From Spirochaetota bacterium (GTDB taxonomy: Bacteria; Spirochaetota; UBA4802; UBA5550): 41,479 nt of DNA. This document shows, one piece after another, positions 9,236-41,037 of the stretch. The stretch's first letter is position 1; each line of letters starts with the position of its first letter. The position numbers and the translations under genes were made by a program. Below the pieces are notes generated by a model that was not told the DNA's origin, did no database searches, and saw only the letters and a program-made list of their open reading frames with translations. The DNA lies in assembly GCA_025457915.1 (NCBI GenBank), contig JALOTL010000027.1, positions 1 through 41,479 of the forward strand. The letters are read 5' to 3'.

Positions 9236-9874
9236 CTATCTCCAGCTGTCATTTCCAAAATCCGTGCAGACATCGCCGAAGGCGCTTGAACAGGCTTTCA
9301 CGCGCCATGGATCTGTCGGAGCGGTTCCGGTATGCAGAAAATTCATGGTGGTCGAAGTCATGTATTCCCATGGCTGTACCGGCGTGTATTGAATGTAATA
9401 ATAGGTCGCGCCCGGCACTCCCGTCCATACCGCATTGCCCGTCTGTCCGTTATAATTCAAATTGAAATACGCGTCCGCAGTAGCAGATGTAATATCCGAA
9501 ATTTTCTGGATCTGCATCGCGACCGCGGAAAGACCTTCACCGTTTATGAGTACCGGGAGCGATATTCCCGCATGCGTTATTAAAGATCTCGGCGGCTGGG
9601 CACCTACCGAGCCGTACTCCTCCACCCAGATCACGAAGGTCAGGATCCTTGCGTTGGGTATTACAAGTGTTATAATGCTTACTGGGTCATAGACCTGCGA
9701 CATTATAAGGGTCGCATCTGAAACGAAACCCGCGTAGGCCGCAACATGAAGCTTTGTGGTATTGGCAGGAGGATTTCCGATCAACAGCATGACCCTGGCG
9801 AAATTGGCCGTGCTGTCGTAGCAGGAAAATAGTGACATGCCGATTAATAAAGCGCCAACCAGTGCCTTTTTCAT
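9236..9874 (-). CDS. Array lipoprotein 1 (FN3-like)
   Basis: This is a 212-residue lipoprotein, lipobox LFSC with Cys18 followed by YDS. It is the last member of a six-gene tandem paralogue array. Residues about 22-115 form a conserved N-terminal beta-rich domain ('LHVAAYAGFVSDATLI', 'ILTFVIWVEEYG', 'SLPVLINGEGLSAVAM'). The C-terminal ~85 residues have the fibronectin-III-like pattern 'VWTGVPGATYYYIQ' ... 'WRVKACSSAFGDVCTDFG'. Its first ~55 residues are almost identical to array member 2, and the leader GGAGATAAACC before ATG is shared too, so duplication or gene conversion was recent. A surface-exposed binding or structural role is likely; there is no catalytic motif. Confidence 0.85.
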   Translation of the reverse strand: MKKALVGALLIGMSLFSCYDSTANFARVMLLIGNPPANTTKLHVAAYAGFVSDATLIMSQVYDPVSIITLVIPNARILTFVIWVEEYGSVGAQPPRSLITHAGISLPVLINGEGLSAVAMQIQKISDITSATADAYFNLNYNGQTGNAVWTGVPGATYYYIQYTPVQPWEYMTSTTMNFLHTGTAPTDPWRVKACSSAFGDVCTDFGNDSWR

Positions 9875-9967
9875 GGTTTATCTCCGGGAATGCTTTTTAT
9901 TTATAAACAGATTATCGCATTAAAACCTGTTTTGCATCTCGATTAGAATCGATAAATCAGTCAGCTG

Positions 9968-10606
9968 TTACCAGCTCGATTCGCCCCATTCCGTGCAGAC
10001 GTTGTTGAAGGTGCTGGAGCAGGCCCGAACATGCCATGGCTGAGTCGGCAGAGAGCCGTTATGGTAAATATTCAATACAGGATTGCTGATGTCAATCCAC
10101 ATGTTTCCGCCCCAGTATTCCAGTTCATATTTGTTTGCCCCAGGCACACCAGTCCATACGACATCGCCTGTCTGCGCGGTATAGTTTATGTTGAAAAATG
10201 CATTGGCATTATTGTTTGGAGGTGGCATCGTCGTGCTGGAGATTTTCTGCATCTCCATGGCGACGGTAGCGAAACCTTCGCCGCTGATAATTACCGGGAA
10301 AGATACCCCGACGTGCCCGGCGACTGTATTTTGGGTTCCTAATACGGTTTCTTCAACCCATACAACGAAGGTCAGTATCCTGGCGTTGGGTATTATCAGG
10401 GCTATTATGCTTGTAGGTTCATATGACTGGGTCATTATAAGGGTCGCGTCCGAAACGAACCCGGCATAGGCCGCTACATGGAGTTTAGTGGTGTTTGAGG
10501 GCGCTCCGCCGATCAGAAGCAGCACCCTGGCGAAATTGGCCGTGCTGTCGTAGCAGGAAAACAGGGACATGCCGATTAATAACGCGCCGACCAGTGCCTT
10601 TTTCAT
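9968..10606 (-). CDS. Array lipoprotein 2 (FN3-like)
   Basis: This is a 212-residue lipoprotein with a signal peptide nearly identical to member 1 (Cys18, LFSC). The N-terminal domain shares 'TTKLHVAAYAGFVSDATLIM', while the C-terminal half diverges: it has an Asn-rich linker ('PPPNNNANAF') and a different FN3-like face ('VWTGVPGANKYELEYWGG'). The protein ends GESSW at the typical final Trp. Conserved N-terminus and variable C-terminus suggest a common anchor with differing ligand-facing domains. It has its own strong promoter (10639-10666). The gene is preceded by GGAGATAAACC. Confidence 0.85.
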   Translation of the reverse strand: MKKALVGALLIGMSLFSCYDSTANFARVLLLIGGAPSNTTKLHVAAYAGFVSDATLIMTQSYEPTSIIALIIPNARILTFVVWVEETVLGTQNTVAGHVGVSFPVIISGEGFATVAMEMQKISSTTMPPPNNNANAFFNINYTAQTGDVVWTGVPGANKYELEYWGGNMWIDISNPVLNIYHNGSLPTQPWHVRACSSTFNNVCTEWGESSW

Positions 10607-10638
10607 GGTTTATCTCCGGAAATATCAGTATGTACACT

Positions 10639-10666
10639 ATTATAAGGAAAGCCGGATTAATTTCAA
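10639..10666 (-). promoter_or_regulatory. Promoter of array lipoprotein 2
   Basis: On the minus strand TTGAAA (10661-10666) and TATAAT (10639-10644) are separated by 16 bases, ending about 30 bases before the start codon. TTGAAA-N16-TANTAT recurs upstream of array members 4 and 5. Confidence 0.7.
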
Positions 10667-10707
10667 CCAGTTTTTGGAGATTTTAGGGTCGTTGAAGCCG
10701 TGGTAAA

Positions 10708-11322
10708 TCAGGAGCTTGAGACGGCAGACCATATGCTGTAAACATCGAATGCCGGTGAATAAATCCTTACCCTGTGGTCTCCCTGCACATAACCGCCGAA
10801 AAGGTGTTTCGTGACAGGTCCGAAAACCACCCTGGAAAAGTCCAGCGCGCCGAAGGGCATGGTCTGTAATTCATAATAGTCCGCAGTCGGTATGCCGACC
10901 GCGCTCCAGTTCATGGAGTTGTCGGCGCCTGACCAGGCAAGGTTGAAGATCGTGTCCGGTATCGAGTTCATGGACAGCGGCACCGCGGTGAATTCCTGGC
11001 CGGTAAGGACGATCGGCAGGGAAACGCCGTAGTGGGAGGCCACGTTTGTGTCGTCGGTCCCCCACACCATGAAGGTCGCGATCCTTGTGTTCGGTATGAT
11101 CAGGGTTATCACGGTATTTGGGGTGAACTCCGCCTTTGATATGAGAGTGGCGGAGGAGACAACGCCCGCGAAAAGGCCCACGTGGAGCCTGGTGATCGTG
11201 ACAGGTCCCCCCGTGGGAGGAGCTTGTATCAGCAATATGACGCGGGAAAAATCCGACGTGCTGTCGTAGCAGGAGAACAGGGACATACCGATTATTAAAA
11301 TGCCGACAAGAGCCTTTTTCAT
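10708..11322 (-). CDS. Array lipoprotein 3 (FN3-like)
   Basis: This is a 204-residue paralogue, lipobox LFSC at Cys18. The start is the ATG at 11322 with GGAGAT upstream; a TTG five codons earlier would place the ribosome-binding site inside the gene. The N-terminal domain has a slightly longer loop ('PPTGGPVTITRLHVGLFAG'). The FN3-like part opens 'MNWSAVGIPTADYYELQ' and ends near 'VYSIWSAVSSS', lacking the cysteine pair seen in members 1 and 2. A TTGAAA element at 11378-11383 with an AT-rich -10 area (18-base spacing to TATCAA) is its likely promoter. Function unknown. Confidence 0.83.
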   Translation of the reverse strand: MKKALVGILIIGMSLFSCYDSTSDFSRVILLIQAPPTGGPVTITRLHVGLFAGVVSSATLISKAEFTPNTVITLIIPNTRIATFMVWGTDDTNVASHYGVSLPIVLTGQEFTAVPLSMNSIPDTIFNLAWSGADNSMNWSAVGIPTADYYELQTMPFGALDFSRVVFGPVTKHLFGGYVQGDHRVRIYSPAFDVYSIWSAVSSS

Positions 11323-11459
11323 AGCATATCTCCACAAATAATAAATATGTACATTGATATTGCGAATATTAAATAAATTTCAACCATCTTTGAAATCTCA
11401 GAGTCAAATTCATTAGAGCATTCATATGAAATTTTTAATACTGCCGAAAAAAACATGTT

Positions 11460-12089
11460 TTAAAATATCGATAGCCAATCCGTGCATGCGTTTATTGACG
11501 CGGAACATCCACGGAGTCTTACAGAGCTGACGATATGACCGATGTTGTAACTTGTGGAAGTTGTAAAATATTTTATTCCCCAGTCATAATCGCCGGACAT
11601 GTCCTCCTGGAGTTCGTAATAATCCGACAGCGGCAACGGGCTCCAGGTACAGAGGAATGTGTCTGTATTATAAGTCACAAACGGCGGATTCACTGTGATC
11701 GGGTTCATATCAAGCGAAACGGCTCCGAAAGGCTGGCCTTGCATGATTACAGGTATCGAGTAGCCGTAATAAGTTATCGCGGGATAAGGGGGGAATGTGG
11801 GAGACGGCCATGTCGTACCGTTTAGCAGCTCTTCAGCGAACACTCCGAAAACGATTATCTGGTTGTTCGGTATTATCATGGTGATAATCGAGCTTGTCGG
11901 GAAGGAGCTTTTTGATATCAGGGTGGAGGGGGATACAGCGCCGAGATAAGCTCCCACGTGAAGTGTAGATATATTAGCCGTAGGCGGCGTCTGGATTAAA
12001 AGCATCACTCTCGTGAAATCACCGTTGCTATCATAGCAGGAGAATAGGGACATGCCGATTAATAAAACGCTGGTCAGCGCCTTTTTCAT
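11460..12089 (-). CDS. Array lipoprotein 4 (FN3-like)
   Basis: This is a 209-residue paralogue with lipobox LFSC (Cys18, then YDS). The N-terminal domain is 'STLHVGAYLGAVSPSTLIS' with an extended proline-rich loop ('GTTWPSPTFPPYPAITYYG'). The FN3-like C-terminus is 'LCTWSPLPLSDYYELQEDM' and ends 'ACTDWLSIF'. The cysteines 'GCSASINACTD' probably form a disulphide. A TTGAAA-N16-TATTAT promoter lies upstream and the leader is GGGGAGATAAATC. It is more diverged from members 1 and 2 than they are from each other. Confidence 0.83.
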   Translation of the reverse strand: MKKALTSVLLIGMSLFSCYDSNGDFTRVMLLIQTPPTANISTLHVGAYLGAVSPSTLISKSSFPTSSIITMIIPNNQIIVFGVFAEELLNGTTWPSPTFPPYPAITYYGYSIPVIMQGQPFGAVSLDMNPITVNPPFVTYNTDTFLCTWSPLPLSDYYELQEDMSGDYDWGIKYFTTSTSYNIGHIVSSVRLRGCSASINACTDWLSIF

Positions 12090-12117
12090 GATTTATCTCC
12101 CCGGGTATATATATTCA

Positions 12118-12145
12118 ATAATAAGATGAATTCCCGGAATTTCAA
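12118..12145 (-). promoter_or_regulatory. Promoter of array lipoprotein 4
   Basis: On the minus strand TTGAAA (12140-12145) is followed after 16 bases by TATTAT (12118-12123), about 30 bases before the start. It begins 12 bases after the terminator hairpin of array member 5. Confidence 0.65.
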
Positions 12146-12157
12146 ATTTTTTTATAG

Positions 12158-12189
12158 GCGCTTCAGGAATTGATTAATCCCTGAAGCGC
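12158..12189. terminator. Terminator hairpin after array lipoprotein 5
   Basis: A perfect 10-bp stem, GCGCTTCAGG (12158-12167) with CCTGAAGCGC (12180-12189), lies just downstream of member 5. The T6 run follows on the plus strand; on the minus strand the tail is CTATAAAAAAATTT, so it looks better as a plus-strand terminator, but its position suits the end of the member 5 transcript. Confidence 0.55.
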
Positions 12190-12213
12190 TTTTTTATATG
12201 GATAAATTTTGCA

Positions 12214-12822
12214 TCAAGTAGTGAATTGCACAAAGTCGCTGCATATGCCGAACACAGAGGAACAGAACCTGGCGCGCGCGGAACTGACGGGGGACGGAAA
12301 ATGACAGGACGTACCCGGTCCCTGGTATATCAGCGCGCCGAAGCCGTCATAAACCTCGTAGTAATCGGCCGAGGGCACGGGGCTCCAGATCGCGTCATTT
12401 TGACCGTTGATTACCTGGAAATTCATCGTGTTTGGCGGGGGCCCGGAATAATCGGTATAAACTTGATTCATCGTTAGAGGGACCAGCGCGAAATCCTGCC
12501 CCTGCATGAGAAGCGGGGGTGAATAGCCTAAATAGGTGACCGCTTCGTTAGGTGGTATCGTTTCTCCAGCCCATACCACGAAAATAAGGATCTGGTTGCC
12601 GGGGATCACCAGCGGATATATGTTGCTCGGGGTGAAGCTGATCTTTGTGATCAGGGTCTGCGGGGTGACGGCCCCCAGGAAAACCCCGACGTACAATTTA
12701 TTGATGTTCACCGTTGGAGGAGTATCGATCAGAAGCAAAACCCTCGAGAACTCGGAACCGCTGTCATAACAGGAAAACAGCGAAGCACCGATGATCAGAA
12801 ATCCAGCCAGCGCCTTTTTCAT
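12214..12822 (-). CDS. Array lipoprotein 5 (FN3-like)
   Basis: This is a 202-residue paralogue, lipobox LFSC at Cys18. The N-terminal domain 'INKLYVGVFLGAVTPQTLIT' and 'ILIFVVWAGE' match the array consensus. The FN3-like part is 'DAIWSPVPSADYYEVYDGFG' and ends 'SSVFGICSDFVQFTT', so the usual final Trp is absent. The promoter TTGAAA-N16-TACTAT (12866-12893) overlaps the terminator of the gene upstream. The leader is CCGGAGATAAATC. Role unknown; surface lipoprotein. Confidence 0.84.
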   Translation of the reverse strand: MKKALAGFLIIGASLFSCYDSGSEFSRVLLLIDTPPTVNINKLYVGVFLGAVTPQTLITKISFTPSNIYPLVIPGNQILIFVVWAGETIPPNEAVTYLGYSPPLLMQGQDFALVPLTMNQVYTDYSGPPPNTMNFQVINGQNDAIWSPVPSADYYEVYDGFGALIYQGPGTSCHFPSPVSSARARFCSSVFGICSDFVQFTT

Positions 12823-12865
12823 GATTTATCTCCGGAAAGGTCTATTTATTTGAAAGTATATTAAT

Positions 12866-12893
12866 ATAGTATAAAAAAATCGCCGCTTTTCAA
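12866..12893 (-). promoter_or_regulatory. Promoter of array lipoprotein 5
   Basis: On the minus strand TTGAAA (12888-12893) and TACTAT (12866-12871) are spaced by 16 bases. The -35 box is part of the 3' arm of the terminator stem belonging to array member 6, so the two signals share the same bases. Confidence 0.6.
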
Positions 12894-12919
12894 AGTTTTT
12901 TTATCTTTAAAAAAAGCGG
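12883..12919 (-). terminator. Intrinsic terminator of array lipoprotein 6
   Basis: On the minus strand CCGCTTTT (reading from 12919) pairs with AAAAGCGG (to 12883), followed by CGATTTTTTT. It lies about 30 bases beyond the stop of member 6 and would separate it from member 5. Confidence 0.6.
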
Positions 12920-12948
12920 CCGCGGATTTCGTATTATACCTGTTCCGG

Positions 12949-13551
12949 TCACCAGTTGAGATATTCCCAGGCCGTGGACAGGCTGAAGACCGTCGAATAG
13001 GCCCTGGCCCTGAGCGATCCCGGCTGGTGTCCCGGGTTGAAACTGTTAAACGGCCCGCTGTACGCGGTCTCCCAGAGCCCGGCGTTAGCGTTGTATTCCT
13101 GGAGCTCGTAGCCCGTGGCGCCCGGTATCGCGTTCCAGCTCACGATGAAGGTCCTTGAATCCGCGAACGGACCCAGCGGCGAGCCTGTAATATTGGCCAG
13201 TTCAAGCGCGACCGGGGTCAGGGCCTGCCCGTTGAGGATTACCGGAAGCGATACGCCCGCGTGGGTAAGAATCTCCGTCCTTCCGCCGTTCAGCCCCTCG
13301 GCCCATATGCTGAAGGTCACCAGCGTACCTGAAGGTATTATCATCGGGATGGCCGTGCTGGGGGTAAAATCCGCCTCCGTGATGAGCGTTTCCGGCGAAA
13401 CGAAAAGCAGGAAAACGCCCACGTGCAGTCTTGTCGTGTCAGCCGGCATGTTGCCGGTAAGGAGCAGGACCCTTGAAAAGTCCGATGCGCCGTCATAGCA
13501 GGAGAGGCTCAAGAAAACCGCCATAACCGGCGCCCATATTATTTTCCTCAT
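12949..13551 (-). CDS. Array lipoprotein 6 (FN3-like), most divergent member
   Basis: This is a 200-residue paralogue at the promoter-proximal end of the array. Its signal peptide differs from the others (lipobox SLSC, still Cys18) but the mature N-terminus 'YDGASDFSRVLLLTG' and the domain 'TRLHVGVFLLFVSPETLIT' are clearly homologous. The FN3-like C-terminus has the textbook pattern 'VSWNAIPGATGYELQEYN' and ends 'TAWEYLNW'. The gene is more GC-rich than the others. A TTGATA-N17-TACATT promoter is possible upstream, and the leader GAGAGGATGCC replaces GGAGATAAATC. It may be the ancestral type of the array. Confidence 0.84.
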   Translation of the reverse strand: MRKIIWAPVMAVFLSLSCYDGASDFSRVLLLTGNMPADTTRLHVGVFLLFVSPETLITEADFTPSTAIPMIIPSGTLVTFSIWAEGLNGGRTEILTHAGVSLPVILNGQALTPVALELANITGSPLGPFADSRTFIVSWNAIPGATGYELQEYNANAGLWETAYSGPFNSFNPGHQPGSLRARAYSTVFSLSTAWEYLNW

Positions 13552-14742: not shown

Positions 14743-15198
14743 ATGAAAAAATTATTCATCATATTGACATTGATTATGACCGCCGGCACGGCCTGGTCGC
14801 AGGCGGTCGCGCCGGTAAATTTCGTCAACCAGCTGGGCGACAAGAAGCAGGCGACCTTCGGCGACGCGGTCACCATTTATCTTTTAACGCTGGGCAAGGA
14901 CCCGAAGGGGTTCAACATCGACGTCCAGGCCCTGACGGGAATGGGCATCCTCAAGGACAACGATTATAAGGCCGACACGCCCCTCCGCAGGGGGATGATA
15001 GCGAACATGGTGGCCAGGCACCTCAAGCTCGGCGACTCCCTGTTCTACAATATCTTCGGCACTGAAAGGTACGCCTTCCGCGCGTGCATAGCCGCCAGGC
15101 TCATGGAGGCCGAGGGAAGCGAATGGGACGACATCAGCGGGGAGGAGCTCCTTGAGATCATGTCCTCGGTCGAGTACAGGCTGGAGGTGCAGAAATGA
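14743..15198 (+). CDS. Small secreted protein of the FecR/cyclase operon
   Basis: This is a 151-residue protein with a signal peptide ending near 'AGTAWSQ'. The mature part resembles an S-layer-homology-like helix arrangement ('VQALTGMGILKDNDYKADTPLRRGMIANMVARHL'), although it is too diverged to call a true SLH domain. The rest is helical ('YAFRACIAARLMEAE'). ATG 14743 follows AAGGTGG and lies 11 bases after the FecR stop; an earlier ATG at 14719 is inside FecR. It overlaps the barrel gene by four bases, indicating coupling. It may link the cell wall to the barrel protein; no function is established. Confidence 0.8.
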   Translation: MKKLFIILTLIMTAGTAWSQAVAPVNFVNQLGDKKQATFGDAVTIYLLTLGKDPKGFNIDVQALTGMGILKDNDYKADTPLRRGMIANMVARHLKLGDSLFYNIFGTERYAFRACIAARLMEAEGSEWDDISGEELLEIMSSVEYRLEVQK

Positions 15199-16742
15199 AA
15201 AAGCTGATATGCCTCCTCGCGGCGCTCGGACTTATGCTGCCCGCCGCCTCGTACTCCCAGAACAAACCGCCCGTCCAGAAAAAGGCCGAGGAAAAACCGG
15301 CTGACGACGACGGCTTCTACCCGAAGTTCCAGACCGACGAGGACATAAGGGACGCCTCGCCGGGAGAGAGCCTGTCCAACAAGGGGCTCCAGTACGGCGT
15401 GTGGCTCACCCCGGTCTTCATAAACAGCCAGAACTCGAAAAGGTCCGACACCTCCACCGTGGACACGGCCAGGGTGTGGATGAAGTCTTACCTCTGGGAC
15501 GGCGCGTACGTTTACGCCAGGGGGAAATACAACCTCACGGCCGCGCTCGACCGCAGGGGAAGCAACGACAATTACATGGACCTTTACAACTATTACCTCA
15601 TGGCCTCGAGCGGACTTTTAAGCCAGCTCGACATACTGTACAAGCTCAACAACCAGCACAAGCTGAGGACTAAAACGGCCAACCATTCCGTCGACCTTGA
15701 CGTGGGGTTCCTGTCGATGAACCTCGGCGGCAAGACCGCGCAGGTCACCGTGGGAAGGAAGTATTTCATACTCGGCAGCGGGCTCGTGCTCAACGGGAGG
15801 GGCGACGGCGGCGAGGTGGATATTTATTCGCCGATAATCAACGTCAAGGCGCTGGCCTCGTACACCGGGTGGCTGGTCAAGGACGACAACCCGTACGGCA
15901 TGAGCGACAGGGACCTGACGGACGGCTCCAGGAGGCTTTTCGCCGGCGGCGAGGTCTTCCATGATTTTTACAACCAGACCCTGTACTTCCTCGCGCTCGG
16001 GCAGATCGACTACGGGATGCAGGACCGCGTATACAGGACGCATTACAATTCGCAGTATTACGGCGTCGGATTGAAGGGCGTGCTCTTCGGCGGCCTCGTC
16101 TACAACGGCGAATTCGTCGCGGAAAGGGGCAAGAGCTACATCAACAGGAGCGTTTACCTTTCCAACCCGGCCGCGCCGACCCAGAACGGCTACGTCTACA
16201 TAAGCAAGGGCGAGAAGATCAAGGGATACGGCGGCGCGCTCAACCTGAGCTATTATTTCGACGCCGCGCTCAACCCGGTCCTCCTTTTCCAGTACTCGGC
16301 CGGTACCGGCGACAGGCACAGGAACAACTACAAACAGCCGGGCGGAAACGGGCAGGGCTCGGACTTCGGGTTCATACCGTTCGGAACATTCGTGGGCGGC
16401 TACGCATTGCGGCCGCTCATAGGGAACCTGCATACGTTGAGGGGCGGATTTGCCATATCGCCGTTTTCCTGGTCGGACGCGAACTGGCTGAGGAGCATGA
16501 GCTTCATGACCAAGTACTCGTTCTACCTGAAAAACAAGGCGGCCGCGGCGATAAACGGCGGCAACGACGCCCTGAAGAAGAACAGGTTCGTGGGGCAGGG
16601 AGTGGACGTTTCGCTCAGGTGGCTGATTTTTTCCGACCTGTCCGCGTTCCTGAACTACGCCATATTCGTGCCGGGGCCCGCGTATCCCGCGTCCGAATCG
16701 AACAGGCATTTCACGATGGTCGGATTCAACATAAGTTTCTGA
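15195..16742 (+). CDS. Outer-membrane beta-barrel protein
   Basis: This is a 515-residue protein with a signal peptide at 1-21 ('LMLPAASYSQ'), a short Lys/Glu/Asp-rich linker, and then a continuous series of alternating aromatic/hydrophobic strands from about residue 60. It ends 'FTMVGFNISF', the C-terminal Phe typical of BAM-assembled barrels. There is little helix and no enzymatic motif. It is about 450 residues of barrel, enough for roughly 16-18 strands. The start overlaps the preceding stop (ATGA), and the cyclase gene starts six bases downstream. It could be a transporter, a receptor or the outer-membrane partner of the FecR protein. No specific family was recognised. Confidence 0.82.
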   Translation: MKKLICLLAALGLMLPAASYSQNKPPVQKKAEEKPADDDGFYPKFQTDEDIRDASPGESLSNKGLQYGVWLTPVFINSQNSKRSDTSTVDTARVWMKSYLWDGAYVYARGKYNLTAALDRRGSNDNYMDLYNYYLMASSGLLSQLDILYKLNNQHKLRTKTANHSVDLDVGFLSMNLGGKTAQVTVGRKYFILGSGLVLNGRGDGGEVDIYSPIINVKALASYTGWLVKDDNPYGMSDRDLTDGSRRLFAGGEVFHDFYNQTLYFLALGQIDYGMQDRVYRTHYNSQYYGVGLKGVLFGGLVYNGEFVAERGKSYINRSVYLSNPAAPTQNGYVYISKGEKIKGYGGALNLSYYFDAALNPVLLFQYSAGTGDRHRNNYKQPGGNGQGSDFGFIPFGTFVGGYALRPLIGNLHTLRGGFAISPFSWSDANWLRSMSFMTKYSFYLKNKAAAAINGGNDALKKNRFVGQGVDVSLRWLIFSDLSAFLNYAIFVPGPAYPASESNRHFTMVGFNISF

Positions 16743-16748
16743 AAAGGC

Positions 16749-19379
16749 ATGAAGATACCGGGCATAGACAGGCTTAAGGGGATACTGGACGCGGCGAGCG
16801 GCTTCGTGGAGAGGAGCCGCTTTTCCGGCGTGGCGATCGCGGCCGTGTCCTTCGCGGTCGTAATGCTCTTCAGCTTCACCGACGCTTACGAAAGGTTCGA
16901 GGTCAAGTTTTACGACATACGCTTCCTCATCAAAAAGCCCGTCGGCGAATGGGACAGGCTCACCTTCGTGGACATAGACGACAACAGCGTCACCACCCTC
17001 GGGCAGTATCCCTGGCCCAGGAACCTCTACGCCAGGGGGCTCGAGTCCCTCGACAGGGTCGGGGCCTCGCAGACCACAATGGACATCATGTTCCTGGACG
17101 AGACGCCGCTCCAGCTCAACAGGGAGGACTTCAGGAAAATAACCGCGAAGGCCGAAGCCGGCAGAAGGCTGAACAGGAAGGACCTGGACTCGGCCGCCAT
17201 AGACATGGACAGGATGTTCTCCGGGTCGGTGAAGCAGTCCGGCAGGGTGCTGCTGGCATATTCATTCAGCGAGGACCCGCTCGTCGCCGACGTCGTCGAA
17301 AGGCAGAAGAAGCAGGAATTCCTTGAGGCGGAAAAGCGGTTCAACCGGCTGGCCACGATAAAGGTCCCTGAGAAAATGCTCGCGGACTACAGGAGCCTCG
17401 GCGAGGAAAAGATCAAGGCGCTGGCCTATCCGATCCCGGGCCTGATGGCCTCGGGAAAGAACTTCGGCTTCGTGAACAGGGACACCGACATTGACGGCGC
17501 GATAAGAAGGGTCAGGCTGGTAAGGCTGTTCAACGGGAGGCTTTATTTCAACCTGGCGCTGATGATGGTGGCGGACGCGTGCGGCGTGCCCCTCGAAAGG
17601 ATAGAGGTCGTGCCGGGGAAAAGCATCACGCTCAAAAACGCGGTCAACCCCAGGACCCATGCCTCCGGCGACATATCCATTCCCATCGACTCCAGGGGGA
17701 TGATGTACGTCAACTGGGCGAAGCACAATAAAAGGGAGGAGTCGTTCAAGGTGATCCCGTTTTTCGCCCTCCTGGATTACTCGGCGTACGCGGACGCGGT
17801 CCACGATTATTTCAAAAGCGCCCAGCAGAGGCGCGGAAACAGCGAGCTCGACAACCTGGCCGCCGAGCTGGAATCCGCCCGCGCCGAATACGGGTCCGCA
17901 AGAGAGGGCCTGCAGAGGTCGAAGATCTGGGCCGGGATATCGGCGCTCAAGAAGAAGATAAGGTCCGTGAAGAACGAATACAAGAAGGACCTCGAGGGAG
18001 AGGTCGGGAGGCTGAAGGCGGCGGCCAAAAACGCCGGCCCCGAAGGCAGGAAGGAGCTGGAGCTCGCGCAGGACGACCTGAAGGCGGTCGACCTGGTCAG
18101 CCGGGTCGAGGACCTTTCCGACAACCTGGTGGTGACCGGGCTGACGACCACCGGCGGTACCGACATCGGGATAATACCCCTCACCAAGGACTATGCCCTG
18201 GTGGGGACGTACCATAACACGGTCAATACCATACTCCACGGCGCCTACATCAAGAAGGCCGGGCCCCTGTTGAATTACATGATCATGCTCGGGATAGCGC
18301 TGCTTATGGGTTTTTTCGTCCAGCTCCTCGACGCGAGGAAGTCCATGCTCGTGATGGTATCATCCTTCGCGGGGATCAATATCATCGTGATGGGCGTCTT
18401 CGCCCTGTTCGACATCTGGATCGACCAGCTGGGGACGATGCTTTCGCTCCTGCTCCCGTCCCTGACGATAGCCGGGGTCAAATTCATCGGCGAGGAAAGG
18501 CAGAAGAGGTTCATCAAGAACGCGTTTTCGCACTACCTGTCCCCGGGCGTCATAGAGCAGATAATAGTCAACCCGGAGTCCCTGCAGCTGGGCGGCGAGA
18601 TGAGGAACATCACCATCTTCTTCTCCGACGTGGCCAAGTTTTCAACCATATCCGAGAAGCTCAATCCGAAGGAGCTCGTGGCCCTGCTGAACGAGTACCT
18701 CTCCGAGATGACGGACATCATACTGTCGTACGGAGGGACCGTGGACAAGTACGAGGGCGACGCCATCATGGCCTTTTACGGCGCGCCGTACGCGGACAGC
18801 CGGCACCCGCTCAACGCGTGCATGGCCGCGATCGACATGAAGAAGCGGCTCAGGGAAATGCAGGAGCAGTGGAAGAAGATCGGGAGGGACGCGCTGTTCG
18901 CCAGGATGGGCATGAATACCGGCGAGGCGGTCGTCGGCAACATGGGATCGAGGACCAGGATGAACTACACGGCGATGGGCGATTCGGTAAACCTCGCGTC
19001 CAGGCTCGAGGGGGCCAACAAGTTTTTCGACACGCACGCCATGATCAGCGAAACGACCTATGAAGGCGCGAAGGACGATATAGAAGGAAGAAAGCTCGGC
19101 GTGATAAGGGTGGTAGGCAAGAGCGAGGCGGTTTCCATTTACGAGCTTCTCGGCAAGAAGGGCTCCCTTCCCGACAGGATGTACGGGATGCTGGAGAAAT
19201 ACAACCAGGCGCTGGGGCTGTTCTACAAGAGGGAATGGAAGAGGGCCAGGGCGCTGTTCAAGGAGGGGCTGAAGATAGTATCCGACGACGGTCCAAGCAT
19301 CAAGTATCTCGGGCTCTGCGAGGAATATTCCAGGAATCCCAGGAGCTGGGACGGCATTTTCACGCTCAAATCCAAATAA
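16749..19379 (+). CDS. CHASE2-domain class III adenylate/guanylate cyclase
   Basis: This is an 876-residue inner-membrane protein. One TM segment (about 27-44) leads into a periplasmic CHASE2 domain, in which a charged coiled-coil stretch (about 350-453, Lys/Glu/Ala-rich) is inserted before 'NLVVTGLTTTGGTDIGIIPL'. Three TM segments follow at about 510-580. The class III cyclase domain (about 620-770) has both metal aspartates ('FFSDVAKFS', 'KYEGDAIMAFYG'), the Lys that selects adenine, 'NYTAMGDSVNLASRLEGA' for the transition-state Asn/Arg, and 'GMNTGEAVVGNMG'. A TPR-like tail ends the protein. It should make cAMP from ATP in response to a periplasmic cue. It closes the FecR/OMP operon. Confidence 0.93.
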   Translation: MKIPGIDRLKGILDAASGFVERSRFSGVAIAAVSFAVVMLFSFTDAYERFEVKFYDIRFLIKKPVGEWDRLTFVDIDDNSVTTLGQYPWPRNLYARGLESLDRVGASQTTMDIMFLDETPLQLNREDFRKITAKAEAGRRLNRKDLDSAAIDMDRMFSGSVKQSGRVLLAYSFSEDPLVADVVERQKKQEFLEAEKRFNRLATIKVPEKMLADYRSLGEEKIKALAYPIPGLMASGKNFGFVNRDTDIDGAIRRVRLVRLFNGRLYFNLALMMVADACGVPLERIEVVPGKSITLKNAVNPRTHASGDISIPIDSRGMMYVNWAKHNKREESFKVIPFFALLDYSAYADAVHDYFKSAQQRRGNSELDNLAAELESARAEYGSAREGLQRSKIWAGISALKKKIRSVKNEYKKDLEGEVGRLKAAAKNAGPEGRKELELAQDDLKAVDLVSRVEDLSDNLVVTGLTTTGGTDIGIIPLTKDYALVGTYHNTVNTILHGAYIKKAGPLLNYMIMLGIALLMGFFVQLLDARKSMLVMVSSFAGINIIVMGVFALFDIWIDQLGTMLSLLLPSLTIAGVKFIGEERQKRFIKNAFSHYLSPGVIEQIIVNPESLQLGGEMRNITIFFSDVAKFSTISEKLNPKELVALLNEYLSEMTDIILSYGGTVDKYEGDAIMAFYGAPYADSRHPLNACMAAIDMKKRLREMQEQWKKIGRDALFARMGMNTGEAVVGNMGSRTRMNYTAMGDSVNLASRLEGANKFFDTHAMISETTYEGAKDDIEGRKLGVIRVVGKSEAVSIYELLGKKGSLPDRMYGMLEKYNQALGLFYKREWKRARALFKEGLKIVSDDGPSIKYLGLCEEYSRNPRSWDGIFTLKSK

Positions 19380-33995: not shown

Positions 33996-34053
33996 TTAAT
34001 GGCCTGTTTTTTTATTGCCGGCCGGCGCGTTTTTACAGCCTGGGCCGCTCCGG

Positions 34054-34836
34054 TTATTTAATTAATCTATCAAAGTTTTCCCTGACCGAGTCAATTATTT
34101 TTGAAAGGTTTTCCCTTTTTAATTCGGAAATGAACCTGTAGGTGTGGGCGACGAATTCCGGCCTGTTTTTTTTCCCCCTCATCGGGACGGGCGCGAGGAA
34201 GGGCGCGTCCGTTTCAACAAGCATCCTGTCAAGGGGCGCGAACCTGGCCGAATCCTGTAGGGCCTCCGCCGTCCTGTAGGTCAGGTTTCCGGCAAATGAC
34301 AGCATGCAGCCCATGTCCAGCAGTAACGAGGCGGCTTTCCTGTCGCCCGGAAAGCAGTGGATGATCACGGGTGAATGGGGCTTTTTCCGGAGGATCGATA
34401 TGGTATCCTCCATCGCCTCCCTCGTATGCACGATCAGCGGCAGTGAATGCCTGGCCGCAAGGTCAATCTGGCGCTCGAAAGAGGACCTCTGCATTTCAAC
34501 GGGCATCCTCATCCTGTAGTAGTCCAGGCCGCATTCGCCTATGCCGAAAAGAAGCTTTGAATCCGGCGACCCTGAAACCTCCAGCACGAACTTTTCCAGC
34601 GCGCCCAGCTGTTCCCCGTCCGCCCGCGACGAAGGATGGATCCCGGCCGTGAACAGGATCCCGGACCCGGAATGTCTTCCCGCAAATTCCCTCGACCATC
34701 CGAGTCCGCCGGCGTCTATCGACACCTGAACGGCCCTGGAGACGCCGTTTTTTTTCAATCCGTCCATCACTTCTTTTTCATCCGCACCTGTTTCCCCGAT
34801 GAGGATGTCGAAGTGGGCGTGTGAGTCTATATACAT
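34054..34836 (-). CDS. tatD: TatD-family metal-dependent deoxyribonuclease
   Basis: This is a 260-residue TatD protein with every metal ligand of the family: 'IDSHAHFD' (HxH), 'GIGECGLDYYRM' (Glu), 'LIVHTREAM', 'VIIHCFPG' and 'VETDAPFLAP' (Asp). TatD enzymes are TIM-barrel 3'-5' exo/endonucleases implicated in DNA repair and RNA quality control. The start has AAGGGG upstream, but this segment can pair with CCCC in an upstream hairpin (34844-34868). It is probably transcribed together with nadB. Confidence 0.95.
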   Translation of the reverse strand: MYIDSHAHFDILIGETGADEKEVMDGLKKNGVSRAVQVSIDAGGLGWSREFAGRHSGSGILFTAGIHPSSRADGEQLGALEKFVLEVSGSPDSKLLFGIGECGLDYYRMRMPVEMQRSSFERQIDLAARHSLPLIVHTREAMEDTISILRKKPHSPVIIHCFPGDRKAASLLLDMGCMLSFAGNLTYRTAEALQDSARFAPLDRMLVETDAPFLAPVPMRGKKNRPEFVAHTYRFISELKRENLSKIIDSVRENFDRLIK

Positions 34837-34843
34837 TATAATG

Positions 34844-34868
34844 GCCCCTTATCCTGCAGTCTCGGGGC
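34844..34868. terminator. Hairpin at the tatD leader
   Basis: GCCCC (34844-34848) pairs with GGGGC (34864-34868), followed on the plus strand by TTTTTT (34869-34874). On the minus strand the same stem includes the AAGGGG preceding the tatD ATG. It could end plus-strand readthrough or mask the tatD ribosome-binding site. The 5-bp stem is short. Confidence 0.35.
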
Positions 34869-34987
34869 TTTTTTATCCGATGCCCCGGCAAATTCAAGTT
34901 AAAATCGTCCATCTTTTTCCAGGCCGGTGATTTAAGTGTTGCCATTCCCGCGGCGGCAGTGAAATATTACTTGCACAGGGGTGCTGC

Positions 34988-35539
34988 ATGAGGATTTTCG
35001 TCATGGCCGACTTTCACGGCGATTTGCTTCACGTTGACAGGGCGGGAGACCTTATCCGGGATGCGGACATGGTCGTCCTGGCCGGGGACCTTTCCGGATC
35101 GGGCGACAGGGGAAGCGCCGAGTCTTCGATTCATTCCAGGGGGGTCATTGCGGGCGGCATCGGTTTTTTCGGCCTGGGCGGTTCCCGCCGGACGCCGATG
35201 CATACCTTCACGGAATACAACGAAGAGCAGATAGCGGAATTCCTCAGGCTGGGATACTCGATGGTGGAGAAGTCCGGTACAAGGGTCCTTGTATCGCACA
35301 CCCCGCCGAAAAAATGCAGGGACCGTACTTTTTTCGGCTTAAGCGCCGGCAGCCCGGCGCTCAGGGAATTCATGGAAAGCAACCCCTTCGATCTGTGCCT
35401 TTGCGGGCATATACACGAGGCCTACGGTGCGGACAGGTCGTGCGGCGTTTTAGTGGTAAACTCGGGATCCTTCAGGAAAGGGAGGTATTCCTCGGTCGAA
35501 ATCGGCGGCGGGATAAAAGTCGAAAGTGGCAGGGTATGA
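34988..35539 (+). CDS. Metallophosphoesterase lacking the GNH/GNC motif
   Basis: This is a 183-residue calcineurin-like phosphoesterase. The expected motifs are 'MADFHGD' (DxH), 'VLAGDLSGSG' (GD), 'LVSHTPP' and 'LCGHIHEAYG' (GHxH). The GN(H/C)D motif, which bridges the metal pair and normally sits between the GD motif and 'GIGFFGLGGS', is absent. Homologues of this type have roughly 40 more residues there. The reading frame continues across the join ('GDRGSAESSIHSRG'), so this looks like an in-frame internal deletion. Activity may be lost or changed. CAGGGGTG precedes the start. It is probably transcribed alone, divergently from tatD. Confidence 0.85.
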   Translation: MRIFVMADFHGDLLHVDRAGDLIRDADMVVLAGDLSGSGDRGSAESSIHSRGVIAGGIGFFGLGGSRRTPMHTFTEYNEEQIAEFLRLGYSMVEKSGTRVLVSHTPPKKCRDRTFFGLSAGSPALREFMESNPFDLCLCGHIHEAYGADRSCGVLVVNSGSFRKGRYSSVEIGGGIKVESGRV

Positions 35540-35551
35540 CCGGATGACGTC

Positions 35552-35580
35552 TTGACAAAAGACGGTCGATGGTTTATAAT
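35552..35580 (+). promoter_or_regulatory. Consensus sigma-70 promoter
   Basis: TTGACA (35552-35557), a 17-base spacer, and TATAAT (35575-35580) match the sigma-70 consensus at all 12 positions. Transcription would begin at about 35587, about 20 bases before the GTG start of the HAMP protein. This indicates strong constitutive expression of the downstream three-gene unit. Confidence 0.85.
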
Positions 35581-35605
35581 ACGCATACATATTTACGAGG
35601 CGGCC

Positions 35606-36373
35606 GTGTTTGGATTTAAAATTGAAATGTCGAGGCTCAGAAAGAAACTGCTCCTCTATTTCATTCTGATAGCCATCGTGTCCATCTCGGTAAGCGCCGA
35701 GATAATCCTGGAGGTAAGCACGTCCAGTTTCAAGGACAAAGTTGAGGCCAACGTCTTCAAGCAGCTGGAGAAGAGGATGCCTGCCGGCGAGATCGAGTCC
35801 CTTAAAAAGGACCTGGACTTCGATTCGGTTCTTGCGCCGCTCTTTGAGCTCAGGAACCGCATGATACTTTTCCTCCTGGTGGTCTCGGTCAGCATCTTCG
35901 TCGCCTTCGTGCTTTTCACAAGGGATATAATTTCGCCGATGGACGGCATGGTGGACGCGACCAAGCGGATCGCGGAGGGCGACCTGACCGTTACCGTTCC
36001 GGTGGTTTCGGAGGACGAGATCGGGCAGGTGGGCAAGCTGATAAACGACATGAACGTCAACCTCCAGGACATGATCATGCAGATAAAGCAGGAGGTGAAG
36101 CGCCACAAGGAGCAGATCGTGGTGGCCACCAACAAGATGAACGAGATAGTCAAGGAGGACGTGGCTGACGGCATCATGGAGAGCAGGAAAATGAAGGTGT
36201 CCGACTTTAAAAAGATGGTCAAGCTGAGCAGGGACGTGATGGGTCTTCTCGAAAGCATGTCCGTTGAGCTTTCCGCCCTTCAGGCCTTCGTGAACATGTA
36301 CAAGATATACACCTCCCAGCCGGAAATGTCGCAGGCCCAGCTTGACACTGCATTCAAGAATTACGAGGAGTGA
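35606..36373 (+). CDS. Membrane HAMP-domain protein without output domain
   Basis: This is a 255-residue protein. TM1 (about 15-33), a ~55-residue periplasmic segment and TM2 (about 92-111) are followed by a HAMP domain ('TRDIISPMDGMVDATKRIAEGDLTVTVPVV', 'DEIGQVGKLINDMNVNLQDM') and a long coiled coil to the end. There is no kinase, cyclase or MCP signalling domain. GTG 35606 with GAGG upstream is preferred because a TTG at 35552 is part of the promoter; ATG 35627 is an alternative. The gene overlaps the following permease gene (GTGA). It may transmit a periplasmic signal to the chemoreceptor or permease beside it, which is inferred from context. Confidence 0.85.
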   Translation: MFGFKIEMSRLRKKLLLYFILIAIVSISVSAEIILEVSTSSFKDKVEANVFKQLEKRMPAGEIESLKKDLDFDSVLAPLFELRNRMILFLLVVSVSIFVAFVLFTRDIISPMDGMVDATKRIAEGDLTVTVPVVSEDEIGQVGKLINDMNVNLQDMIMQIKQEVKRHKEQIVVATNKMNEIVKEDVADGIMESRKMKVSDFKKMVKLSRDVMGLLESMSVELSALQAFVNMYKIYTSQPEMSQAQLDTAFKNYEE

Positions 36374-37167
36374 TCTGGTTCACGGATGAATTTATGAGCT
36401 TCGAATACTGGTACATGTTCCCCATAGCGGTCGTGGTCGCGGTCCTGGCAAATTCATCCGGGTTTTCCGGCGGAGTTCTTTTCCAGCCGATATATTACAT
36501 CTTCCTGAACGTGCCGATCCAGAACTCGGTGGCGACCGGGATAGCCACTGAAACTCTCGGAATGACAAGCGGCACAATCCGGTATCTCTGGTACAGGATG
36601 GTGGACCTTCCCATAGGCTTTACTCTTATTATGCTGACGATTCCCGGGGTCATTCTCGGCAACTACGCGCTCATGATAATCGACGGCGATCTCCTGAAGC
36701 TGGTGCTCGGCATCATCATACTCGGGCTCGCGACGATGCAGCTTTTCAACGCTGCGAGAATGTATTTCGGGACCAGGGAAAGGGTTCCCATTGAGGACAT
36801 CTACGGTTACATGTGGGTGCCGCCCATAGCCGGGTTCTTTTCCGCGTCCACAGGGACCGGGGTGTGCGAGATCTCACAGCCGCTCCTTGAAAGGGGAATG
36901 AACCTCGAAACCAAGAAGGCCAACGCGACCGCCATTCTTATCGAGGCGACCGCGGACTGGATAATAACGATCCTGAACCTCCATGCCGGCCTCATAATCT
37001 GGGAGATATGGATCTTCACCGGCACCGGCGTCATACTGGGCGGACAGATAGGGCCTTATCTTTCCAGGTACCTGCCGGCGAGGCTGCTTAAAATCATATT
37101 TTCAATAGCCGTGATTATAATTGGAATTTTCTATATTTACAAGGGAGCGCTCTGGATCCTGAAATAG
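36370..37167 (+). CDS. TauE/SafE-family permease
   Basis: This is a 265-residue membrane protein with about eight TM segments. It has the N-terminal '[19 protein letters not shown]' repeat and the '[12 protein letters not shown]' half-repeat typical of TauE/SafE (DUF81) transporters, which are thought to move sulfite, sulfoacetate or related organosulfur anions. Substrate cannot be determined. GTG 36370 overlaps the previous stop; ATG 36394 with GGATG upstream is an alternative start. Placement between a HAMP protein and a chemoreceptor is unusual for this family. Confidence 0.9.
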
Positions 37168-37180
37168 CCCGTATATCCGG

Positions 37181-38878
37181 ATGAAGATAATAGAATTCCT
37201 ACAAACGCAGGGAGGGCTCGCCTTCCTTCATTTCACTCAGACCGCCCTGTTTTCGATGATGGTCTACATTCTCGCCGCGGAGTTTTTCAGAACAAAAAGG
37301 GAGGACCTTGTCTACAAGCTTGTGGCCGCAAGCAGCATAACCCTGATCAACATTGCGACCACCGCGATACTGGTCCTTGAATCGTTTTACGGAATAAGCA
37401 TTTCACAGAAGTACTTCCCGCTGATCTTCAACGCGTTTTTCGCGGTAATCGTGCTGGCCCTGGCCAGGGCCTTCGTGTACCAGTTCGTCGCCGCGAAAAA
37501 GGTCTTTGACAGGTACATAAGGTTCGGGATGCTCGGCGTGTGCGCCGTGTATGCCGTCATGCAGGTTTACTGGGCGTCCATTTTTACAGAGGGGATGATG
37601 TTCGGGAAGTCGGTCCTTCAGCTCGTTTTCGGTTTGTTCTTCATCGTGATGCTCGGGTTTTCAATCTATTACCTCGCGAAATTCAGGAAGACGTACAGGT
37701 TCAGGCTGATCCTCGCGTTCAGCTCCATCGCCGTCGCCCAGTTCGTGAACATATATTTCGTCCTGTCCGACGAGGTCCCGAATATTCTTTTCGTGATCAG
37801 GGCCGCGTCGCCGCTGCTGGTCCCTGCGATGTTCTGCAGCGTGGTTTTCAAGGAGCTTATCGAGAGCGTGGTGACCATGGTCGAGAGCCTGAAGAAGGCG
37901 CTGGACAACCAGAGGGACCTGATATTCCAGATGATGAACATGGGCGCCGACCTTTCCGACCTCTCGGACGAGCTGGTGAAAACATCGAGGGACGGCTGGC
38001 AGAAGCTTTCCTCCGTCGTGGAAAACATATATGCGCAGGAGCAGGACAGGATCAACATCCTGGACATGACGAGGAACACTTCTCATTTCATCGATGAGAT
38101 GACGCTGAAAATCGACGAGTCCGACAGCGGGCTCGGGGAAAGCCTTTCACGGCTGTCGGGCATGGCGGAATTTTTTACCGGAACGGGACTGAAGGGCAGG
38201 ATCGACGAAATGTCCGCTGCCGTCGGTGGGGCCTCCTCCCGCATTGAAAAGGCCTGGGAGGGCATGGCCGGGCTGACGGCATCCTTCAACGGCATCAGGG
38301 GCTCACTGGACGAGATCCTGGAGATTTCAGACAAAACGTCCATGCTCGCGCTCAACGCGTCCATCGAGGCGGCGAGGGCCGGGGAGCAGGGAAAGGGCTT
38401 CTCTGTGGTGGCTGACGAGGTTTCCAAGCTCGCCGAAAGGTCTCAGGTGAACACGGACGTGGTAAGCGGGTTTCTCAGGAAGGTCATGCAGGAGGTGGCG
38501 TCAGTGAATTCCATGATGAGGGCGGAGATGTCGGTCATTGCCTCCTGTGCAGGCGATATGGAATTAATCAGCGGTAAAATGGCCGAATTCTCGGACGGCC
38601 TTGCCGGTTTTGAAGCGGCCGTGAAGGACCTGGCGGCCGGCGGCGGCAGGAGTGATTTCGCCTGGATGATAAAGGACGACATGCAGGCCACTGAGATCCT
38701 GATCGAGAGGAACAGGAAGCACGGCGACGAGATGAAGGACGCGATCAGCAACCATATCCGTGAAATTGAGGCCATAGCAGGTATGAGCGACAGGCTGAAC
38801 GACATGATCAACGACCTCAACGATAAGACCAACCAGGCGATAAAAATGGCCGAACAGCTTCAGGGCCTGACGGCCTGA
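37181..38878 (+). CDS. Chemoreceptor with multi-TM sensory N-terminus
   Basis: This is a 565-residue protein. The first ~225 residues contain seven probable TM helices, in place of the usual two-TM periplasmic ligand domain. After a coiled coil comes an MCP signalling hairpin with tip '[36 protein letters not shown]', which binds CheA/CheW. There is no HAMP domain in this protein; the gene two positions upstream encodes one. The start lacks a strong ribosome-binding site. It is terminated by the hairpin at 38887. The protein probably senses a membrane or intracellular cue, or the state of the adjoining permease. Confidence 0.9.
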
Positions 38879-38886
38879 CACGGAAA

Positions 38887-38911
38887 CGGTCTTTTTCGAC
38901 CGGATTTTTTT
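38887..38911 (+). terminator. Intrinsic terminator of the chemoreceptor operon
   Basis: CGGTC (38887-38891) pairs with GACCG (38898-38902), followed by GATTTTTTT. It lies eight bases after the chemoreceptor stop and should end the HAMP/TauE/MCP transcript. Confidence 0.65.
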
Positions 38912-38951
38912 ATTGAAATAAATCCGCGCATCGTGTAGCATTAATAATTCG

Positions 38952-39221
38952 GTGCATGCCTTGAGACCAGACAATCCATTCCGTTTTTTTAAAATAATAC
39001 TGAAGACAACCCTGCTGTTACCTGTCATTCAAATGCCATGCCAGATCATGGCCGGTATACTTAAAATCGACGCAAAAGCGGATGAGTATGATCTTTCCCC
39101 GGGCAAATTCATCGGCAGCCTTCTGACATACATAAGGGTCTGGACCGGCAAGACCGATTCCTTCGACGACGATCTCACGATGGCCGTTATCGGCATCAAG
39201 CAGGGGACGGCGCAAACATAA
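38952..39221 (+). pseudogene. C-terminal relic of a PP2C/SpoIIE-type phosphatase
   Basis: This frame of about 89 codons ends 'FIGSLLTYIRVWTGKTDSF' followed by 'DDDLTMAVIGIK', the closing helix and DD-(I/L)-T motif of SpoIIE/RsbU-type serine phosphatases. The preceding ~40 residues do not resemble the phosphatase core, and no catalytic motifs or ribosome-binding site are present. It is therefore best read as a leftover 3' end, probably from a lost signalling gene. It converges on the beta-lactamase-like gene at 39235. Confidence 0.55.
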
Positions 39222-39234
39222 AGGACGCGGCCGC

Positions 39235-41037
39235 TCAATCCTCCCTTCTGAGAAGCACCCCCGAAAAATACAGCATTTCCTTCCCGTCCCTTACGACGAC
39301 CCTTATCGTCTGGCCCATGTTTCTTCCCAGGCCGGCGATGACTGCCTCGGTGTCTGACAGCGGCACGAGTATCATGCCCGGGATGAATTCCGGGGTTCCA
39401 GTGATGTTGTAGTACGCCAGCATGTATCCGTCATCAAAGCCGAGCCTGAGCTTCCCGAAAAGCTGCACCGTGTCACCCGGATCGAAGATGCTGTAGTTCC
39501 CCGCGCGCTTCAGCCAGGAATCCGGCGCCCTGACCCTTTCGGCTTTCGTCCCGGCCAGGTATCGCCTGCCGAAGATTTCGCTGACCAGCAGGGTTTTACC
39601 GGATACTTTTTCCACGGTAAAATAACTGTCCCTGAATATGCCGGGCCTTATGCCGAAATAGCTCAGCCGGAATTTTTTTCCGCCGTAAAAAGTCATTCCC
39701 ATCGAATAGCCGCCCACTTCCATGGACGCGCCGCTGCCGGATTTTTTTATCCTTACCGCTCCCATGTACTCCGTGGCATAATACCCCTCGATAGAACCGG
39801 GATCGGATTCACCGGGACCCTCCATCGCCGGTTCAGGAGCGGCTGCCGCGGCGGAGATTTCCCCGGTTTTCGCCTCGATCGCGCGGTTGAGGGATTCGAC
39901 CGCGATTTTCGCAACGGCCATGGATCCCGTGTTCGAGTTCGACAGGACCACGACCCCGATCTTCATGTCCGGAATTACGGCCAGCATGCTGTTGAAGAGT
40001 ACCGTGCTGCCGGCGTGCCAGGCGACCAAGCCGCCGTAATTGATTCTGGTCTTCGCGAGAAAATCCAGGCCGGAGAGAAACCATCCCAATCCGAAACCCA
40101 GATCGAAATCATAAGGCGACCCGGTGTTCTGCTTTATGAACATTTTCTTCAGTGTCTTTTCTGCCAGAACCCTTGTTGCACCGCGCATGCCGCCAGCGTT
40201 CAGCGTCTTGATGAATTCCGCCAGGTCGGATACGCTTGAAATTGCCGATCCGGCGGGCAGCGGATTTATTACGTACCGGTCCGATTCCTCGCCCATCAGG
40301 TATCCCATCGACATGAGGGCCTCGTCCGACGGCGTATTCGAAAACGAGGTGTGCGTCATTCCCATGGGACGGAAGAGCTCGCGGTCCGTGAAGGATATGA
40401 AATCCCTGCCGGAAACCTTCTGTATTATATGGCCTTCCAGGTTCACGCAGAGGTTGCAGTAGGAGTATACAAGGTCCGGCGGATAGGCCGCGTATTCGTC
40501 CTTCAGCGCCGCAGCCATGGCGGTGAAGGGGATGGAGGATTTCCGGGTAAACAGCATCGCCAGGTTATCGGATGGGAGGCCTGAATGATGATACATCAGG
40601 TGGCGTACTCTCGGTTCCGGCGCGGTGAACCTTTTCCTGTACGCCAGGCCCTTCAGGTAATGCGATACCGGCCTGTCGATGTCCAGCTTCCCCTTTTCAA
40701 CGAGCTTCATCGCCGCCATCGCCGTGAAGATTTTCGAGATGGAGCCTATCTGGTAAAGGGTGTCCCTGGCGGCCTTTATGCCCCTTGATTTGACCGCGTA
40801 TCCGAATCCTTCGGCCCAGACGACATTCTGGCCGTCAATAATCGCTATCGAAAGGCCCTCGATTTTCGCGCGGGACATCTCCCTGCCGATCAGCCATTTT
40901 ATATGCTCGATGGCGTATGAATAATCGCCCTTTTTTACCGCGTCCGGCCGCTTCGGAGCAGACGAGCAGGAAATCAGCGCTGAAATTACGAGCACGGCCA
41001 GGGCCGTTTTTTTTAAATGAATGATAACATCGTTCAT
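39235..41037 (-). CDS. Beta-lactamase-family serine hydrolase lipoprotein
   Basis: This is a 600-residue lipoprotein, lipobox LISC with Cys24. The N-terminal ~370 residues form a class C-like serine hydrolase (PF00144): SxxK as 'GSISKIFTAMA', YxN as 'YSYCNLCVNLEGHI', and the HxG motif in 'WHAGSTVLF'. The C-terminal ~200 residues are an extra beta-rich region, as in several esterase or D-aminopeptidase relatives. GGTGAAG before ATG 41037 and a TATAAT just upstream support this start over ATG 41094. Its activity may be esterase, transpeptidase or peptidase; beta-lactam resistance should not be assumed. Confidence 0.9.
   Translation of the reverse strand: MNDVIIHLKKTALAVLVISALISCSSAPKRPDAVKKGDYSYAIEHIKWLIGREMSRAKIEGLSIAIIDGQNVVWAEGFGYAVKSRGIKAARDTLYQIGSISKIFTAMAAMKLVEKGKLDIDRPVSHYLKGLAYRKRFTAPEPRVRHLMYHHSGLPSDNLAMLFTRKSSIPFTAMAAALKDEYAAYPPDLVYSYCNLCVNLEGHIIQKVSGRDFISFTDRELFRPMGMTHTSFSNTPSDEALMSMGYLMGEESDRYVINPLPAGSAISSVSDLAEFIKTLNAGGMRGATRVLAEKTLKKMFIKQNTGSPYDFDLGFGLGWFLSGLDFLAKTRINYGGLVAWHAGSTVLFNSMLAVIPDMKIGVVVLSNSNTGSMAVAKIAVESLNRAIEAKTGEISAAAAAPEPAMEGPGESDPGSIEGYYATEYMGAVRIKKSGSGASMEVGGYSMGMTFYGGKKFRLSYFGIRPGIFRDSYFTVEKVSGKTLLVSEIFGRRYLAGTKAERVRAPDSWLKRAGNYSIFDPGDTVQLFGKLRLGFDDGYMLAYYNITGTPEFIPGMILVPLSDTEAVIAGLGRNMGQTIRVVVRDGKEMLYFSGVLLRRED

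Follow-up and report, generated by a model that had tools for sequence, protein, structure and literature searches.

The sequence comparisons described here indicate that a permease, its HAMP partner and a seven-helix receptor, through which both would be linked to the chemotaxis pathway, are a real, conserved unit of Spirochaetota and that, by the searches made, this unit is undescribed. Its recurrent co-encoding in uncultured spirochaetes suggests that a sensor is tied to a transporter. The unit was found in the window, i.e. the whole stretch of 41,479 nucleotides that was analysed, which belongs to a Spirochaetota draft genome of 3.66 Mb that is 96% complete.

The locus and its three proteins

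All three predicted genes are present in the order reported earlier, on the + strand: a membrane HAMP protein without output domain (35606..36373, 255 aa), a TauE/SafE-family (TSUP) permease (36370..37167, 265 aa) and a chemoreceptor (37181..38878, 565 aa). The perfect consensus promoter of the original prediction is indeed there. A sigma-70-type sequence, TTGACA-17-TATAAT at 35552..35580 on the + strand, matches the consensus at 12 of 12 positions. It is the sole 12/12 site within 34000-40500, a region with 10 sites of at least 9/12 as compared with 4.3 (sd 2.0) in shuffled sequences. The promoters of the relatives do not equal its strength. A metallophosphoesterase gene (34988-35539) ends 12 bases ahead of it. 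The HAMP gene likely starts at GTG 35606, with GAGG at 35597-35600 ahead of it, or else at ATG 35627; a start at TTG 35552 was discarded because this TTG belongs to the -35 box. The end of the HAMP gene shares 4 bases with the TauE gene, 13 bases separate TauE from the receptor gene, and a stem followed by a T run (38887..38902, + strand) resembles a terminator. We grade this stem as weak because 11 such sites were found and 7.4 are expected from shuffles. The claim of a single transcription unit at 35552-38878 stands insofar as one operon is likely; the gene start is the part that had to be corrected, from 35552 to 35606. No Rfam families were found in the window. Elsewhere in the window, six tandem paralogous genes occupy 9236-13551 on the - strand (200-212 aa, 33-62% mutual identity); two of them, whose sequences were read, are lipoprotein-like, and the two tested had no Pfam match. 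A gene for an alginate-export-like outer membrane protein lies beside a CHASE2-adenylate cyclase gene at 15195-19379 on the + strand.

The first protein has transmembrane (TM) helices at residues 16-34 and 86-104, a HAMP domain at 103-149 and a conserved helical tail at 150-255, as judged from Pfam, hydropathy, alignments and AlphaFold2. HAMP is its only Pfam domain above cut-off (E 8.9e-12), which bears out the predicted lack of an output domain. TM helices, a HAMP domain and no other known domain are the features of output-less HAMP receptors of the Af1503 type; to our knowledge the role of Af1503 is unexplained. When the model of the protein was used in a fold search, the top rows were known HAMP-containing chains, and the best solved match of its profile was E. 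coli Tsr. A contig scan with the protein returned two loci. One (L074) is from a genome with the complete triad (G020); the other (L075), on a Clostridiales contig, aligns over the HAMP region only. The TauE/SafE identity of the permease was confirmed by PF01925, the only Pfam domain above cut-off (E 4.7e-33, 115.3 bits versus a cut-off of 32.6). A search for solved relatives gave none up to E 1. The label "organosulfur-type" given to it earlier is putative and was taken solely from the family name.

The receptor has MCPsignal (PF00015) as its only Pfam domain above cut-off (E 1.6e-25, 90.4 bits versus 34.6). Pfam detects no HAMP domain in it, as had been predicted, and 7TMR-DISM (PF07695) gave no match up to E 0.1. 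A match to a MASE3-kinase (E 0.025) was treated as membrane-helix background. The expectation of about seven TM helices holds: a hydropathy scan counts six and AlphaFold2 seven. The AlphaFold2 model of residues 1-235 was computed from 12 aligned sequences; it places the helices from 10-38 to 201-234 with a mean pLDDT of 83.4 and a pTM of 0.75. With the N-terminus outside, the loops preferred by positive charges would be the cytoplasmic ones. The membrane domain (residues 1-234, 37181..37882) is predicted to have a GPCR-like arrangement. In Foldseek the best E was 0.013, with none ≤0.001, and the 50 matches listed were all GPCRs. VIA-align gave as its best match a designed GPCR-like fold (Z 17.5, 207 aligned residues, 3.2 Å); the remaining matches listed were GPCRs or a second such design, with Z 14.6 at row 50. 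Because GPCR chains crowd the PDB and the identities are around 10%, we claim a likeness in arrangement and not homology. The absence of rhodopsin-type families among the fold matches listed excludes nothing.

The membrane domain is followed by an N-terminal neck (about residues 235-290, 37883..38050), the MCP signalling tip (residues 353-486 by Pfam, 38237..38638) and a C-terminal neck (about residues 513-558, 38717..38854). The two necks are common to the tip-less relatives described below, in which the tip is missing. The conserved tip sequence ([20 protein letters not shown]) is present, and the residues [14 protein letters not shown] of the tip have been retained. The methylation motif of MCPs has the consensus [ASTG]2-x2-[EQ]2-x2-[ASTG]2; it occurs in none of 10 receptors from triads as compared with 17 of the 21 other MCPs of the same genome. 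In an MCP class, the arms of relatives differ by whole heptads. The arms of the 10 receptors measure 169-183 (N arm) and 159-170 residues (C arm), and their differences are not multiples of seven.

One gene cluster in the genome of the window codes for CheW, CheA, CheB and a single-receiver protein. In 19 of the 21 other MCPs of this genome the tip is preceded by three to six hydrophobic segments, and Pfam finds HAMP in only three of all 22. Receptors with several TM helices and no HAMP are therefore normal in this organism. This count is the main point against the view that the HAMP element was split off from the receptor, i.e. that the first gene provides the HAMP relay which the third lacks. 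The view has some appeal: the receptor is without HAMP, a HAMP protein is always encoded two genes upstream, and the profile of this protein finds Tsr first among solved structures. We nevertheless consider it improbable, also in the light of the loci described next.

Co-occurrence in Spirochaetota

We analysed 46 genomes of the order of the window and a sample of 392 Spirochaetota genomes, mostly drafts. Orthologues of the permease (57-77% identity) are present in 24 of the 392, i.e. in 23 besides the genome of the window, and the HAMP gene is located directly upstream in all 24. A 25th HAMP copy (G019) terminates at a contig end. A profile of the seven-helix domain detected 14 of the 392 genomes, and in 14 of 14 the domain is encoded directly behind HAMP-TauE; it carries an MCP tip in 12 and no tip in two (G203 and G185). 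Within the order, the membrane domain of the receptor occurs in 10 of 46 genomes, with one copy each, directly behind TauE. Searches for the seven-helix domain gave no hit in 72,556 plasmid records and no confirmed case in viral contigs. Frequent occurrence of the receptor without the other two genes had been named beforehand as the result that would speak against the unit; across the 392 genomes there were no such cases (0 of 14). These counts agree with the original prediction that the three genes belong together, with shared ancestry contributing to the co-occurrence inside one order.

The receptor is found behind TauE in 12 of the 24 HAMP-TauE loci, with the copies in G018 and G217 cut by contig ends. 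Since HAMP-TauE stands without it in 12 of 24, the receptor is dispensable for whatever HAMP-TauE does. On a tree of HAMP+TauE, in which several deep branches are poorly supported (44-60), the receptor has a patchy distribution across four families; this fits a receptor that is old and was lost several times. In addition, there is a second, shorter HAMP gene, which has its own adjacent TauE in 7 of 10 short-HAMP loci; in G140, G030:C50 and G021:C41 a different gene comes next. The TauE of this second pair is about 24% identical to that of the window. Four of the short HAMP proteins (L124:1306-2136, L125:1303-2127, L126:1330-2292 and L129:1309-2118) have about 50 extra C-terminal residues, which we take to be MshEN-like; Pfam gave no match for this stretch in L124 and L126. 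The receptor-less loci and the second, diverged pair make the HAMP protein look like the partner of the permease first and of the receptor second, and they count further against the idea of a divided receptor.

The same loci lend weight to an uncoupled arrangement: HAMP-TauE would be a self-contained, regulated permease and the receptor would sense the same compound on its own, merely co-expressed and with no physical coupling. Half of the HAMP-TauE loci do without a receptor, and so does the second pair, whose two genes adjoin in 7 of 10 short-HAMP loci. On the other hand, the seven-helix domain was in no case found away from HAMP-TauE, and it is paired with two TauE lineages that are only distantly related (see below). 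We regard this explanation as possible, if rather unlikely.

A third explanation is that slow rearrangement has kept the genes together without any functional link. In the family of the window, genes that are pyrB-/pyrC-like, as named from their sequences, lie closely behind the unit in 9 of 14 laid-out loci (L043, L045-L048, L057, L058, L060 and L061; not in the window). Some of the neighbourhood conservation is thus plain inheritance. However, the wider neighbourhood varies between families and HAMP-TauE-receptor stays the same; the domain is, moreover, also associated with a diverged HAMP-TauE pair. Shared synteny alone is already disfavoured and seems very improbable to us.

A further protein may be a fourth part of the unit. 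It is soluble, has about 550-625 residues and contains two MCP-tip-like segments without the usual tip letters. It adjoins the unit in G004, G017, G020, G026 (cut by a contig end) and G030 (loci in numerical order: L048:5267-7144, L053:9704-11386, L055:3760-5418, L056:1-1118 and L057:11411-13276) and is encoded away from it in G003, G006, G024, G028 and G033. Nine of the 10 genomes with this protein, among the 46 of the order, have HAMP-TauE (Fisher p 6e-4, uncorrected for ancestry); G028 has the protein without HAMP-TauE. The genome of the window has no copy. A seven-helix MCP or the soluble protein is present in 16 of the 19 long-HAMP genomes of the order (including G019); G005, G010 and G019 have neither. 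Other MCP genes lie no more than about 6 kb from HAMP-TauE in G112, G158, G217, G030 and G024 (L112:4120-5361, L113:11420-12670, L117:1752-2999, L053:11852-13330 and L051:11069-12628), a proximity that may be due to chance.

Relatives without a tip in che clusters

The gene order HAMP, TauE, seven-helix protein is retained in G203 and G185. Here the third protein is about 340 residues long, with seven helices and two neck helices that are joined directly, and no MCP tip. Its seven-helix domain is 47-51% identical to that of the window; the HAMP and TauE proteins are only about 23% and 21% identical, respectively, with PF01925 above cut-off in both triads. Neck profiles were built from 10 MCP-type receptors and run on a set that included 500 shuffled sequences. 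Both tip-less proteins were matched by the N-neck profile (E 4.4e-9 and 2.2e-5) and by the C-neck profile (E 1.1e-7 and 2.9e-4); the best of the 21 other MCPs in the genome of the window reached E 0.068. The neck is thus conserved with a form that has no MCP arms to which a separate HAMP protein could relay, and this again disagrees with a divided receptor. The association of one receptor domain with two very different HAMP-TauE pairs is, furthermore, poorly explained by inherited order alone.

Both tip-less triads are located in che clusters. At L183 a CheA gene (Hpt, P2, dimerisation, ATPase and CheW domains) is upstream of the triad and a gene for a receiver-only protein directly downstream; at L182 (G203) CheW and CheA are upstream and receivers downstream. 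A globin gene (L182:15883-16287) adjoins CheW in the latter cluster. The predicted connection to chemotaxis is borne out by the tip on the receptor and by these two relatives. The receptor domain and HAMP-TauE are a recurring module that is linked to chemotaxis in two ways, by a tip or by a che cluster.

A proposed membrane unit built on a permease

From the observed gene order, co-occurrence, domains, lack of methylation motifs, association with a diverged pair and che context we infer a physical complex, a direction of signalling, a function and a ligand in the following way. The products of the three genes may make up a single signalling unit in the membrane with a TSUP permease as its base, a proposal for which we hold the balance for and against to be even. 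The HAMP protein, with two TM helices, a short periplasmic part, HAMP and a helical tail, would be the dedicated partner of the permease and would read or set its state. The seven-helix protein would sit with both and convey this state down its neck helices. In the genome of the window the chemoreceptor tip on the neck would contact CheW/CheA, so that swimming would be guided by the state in which the permease is, or by its substrate, in the absence of the usual methylation sites. The tip-less protein of G203 and G185 would act on the che proteins encoded beside it. Only tentatively do we go further and suggest a new class of chemosensory unit: a single complex, made of a GPCR-like seven-helix protein, a HAMP adaptor and a TSUP permease, would read the state of the transporter and feed it to CheA without methylation-based adaptation, via an MCP tip in the neck of the seven-helix protein or, where the tip is missing, via adjacent che proteins.

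The receptor resembles MCPs in the tip that contacts CheA/CheW, in the membrane anchor and in the cytoplasmic helical part. It differs in its seven-helix input domain without Pfam match, in having neither HAMP nor methylation motif, in a neck shared with tip-less proteins and in arms whose variation in length does not follow heptads. The permease resembles TSUP permeases by PF01925, which is above cut-off in its own lineage and in both tip-less triads, and differs in that genes for a HAMP protein and a receptor accompany its own. As in our unit, a permease is required for the tactic response in PcaK-type transporter-dependent chemotaxis; we know of no HAMP partner or dedicated seven-helix receptor in such systems. 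CetA-CetB, the energy taxis receptor of Campylobacter, has no permease, and CetB is a PAS protein. In sensory rhodopsin II-HtrII the signalling tip is on the HAMP protein, whereas in the unit of the window it is on the seven-helix protein and a permease is added.

The likeness to sensory rhodopsin II-HtrII is one of working only, in that a chemosensory unit there, too, places a HAMP protein next to a seven-helix protein (available parts of PMC5292967). CetA-CetB likewise divides sensing and output between two proteins (available parts of PMC2628428). Af1503 of Archaeoglobus fulgidus, compared as a protein only, is also a membrane HAMP protein without output domain, with similarity in HAMP; the protein of the window differs by its longer conserved tail and fixed permease neighbour, and the available parts of PMC3585426 make no mention of genes neighbouring Af1503. 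No description of the HAMP-TauE-seven-helix receptor combination was found in our searches of the open-licence PMC literature, in agreement with the earlier suggestion of a system not described so far; the available parts of PMC10653840 and PMC1592074 contain nothing relevant to it.

If the proposal is true, the unit would be a natural test of a permease acting as a chemosensor, and it would be a case of a seven-helix input domain connected directly to a chemoreceptor tip, with neither HAMP nor methylation sites. The tip-less and tip-bearing forms would show the gain or loss of an MCP tip on a receptor neck. Finally, the unit would provide a job for output-less HAMP proteins, as known from Af1503.
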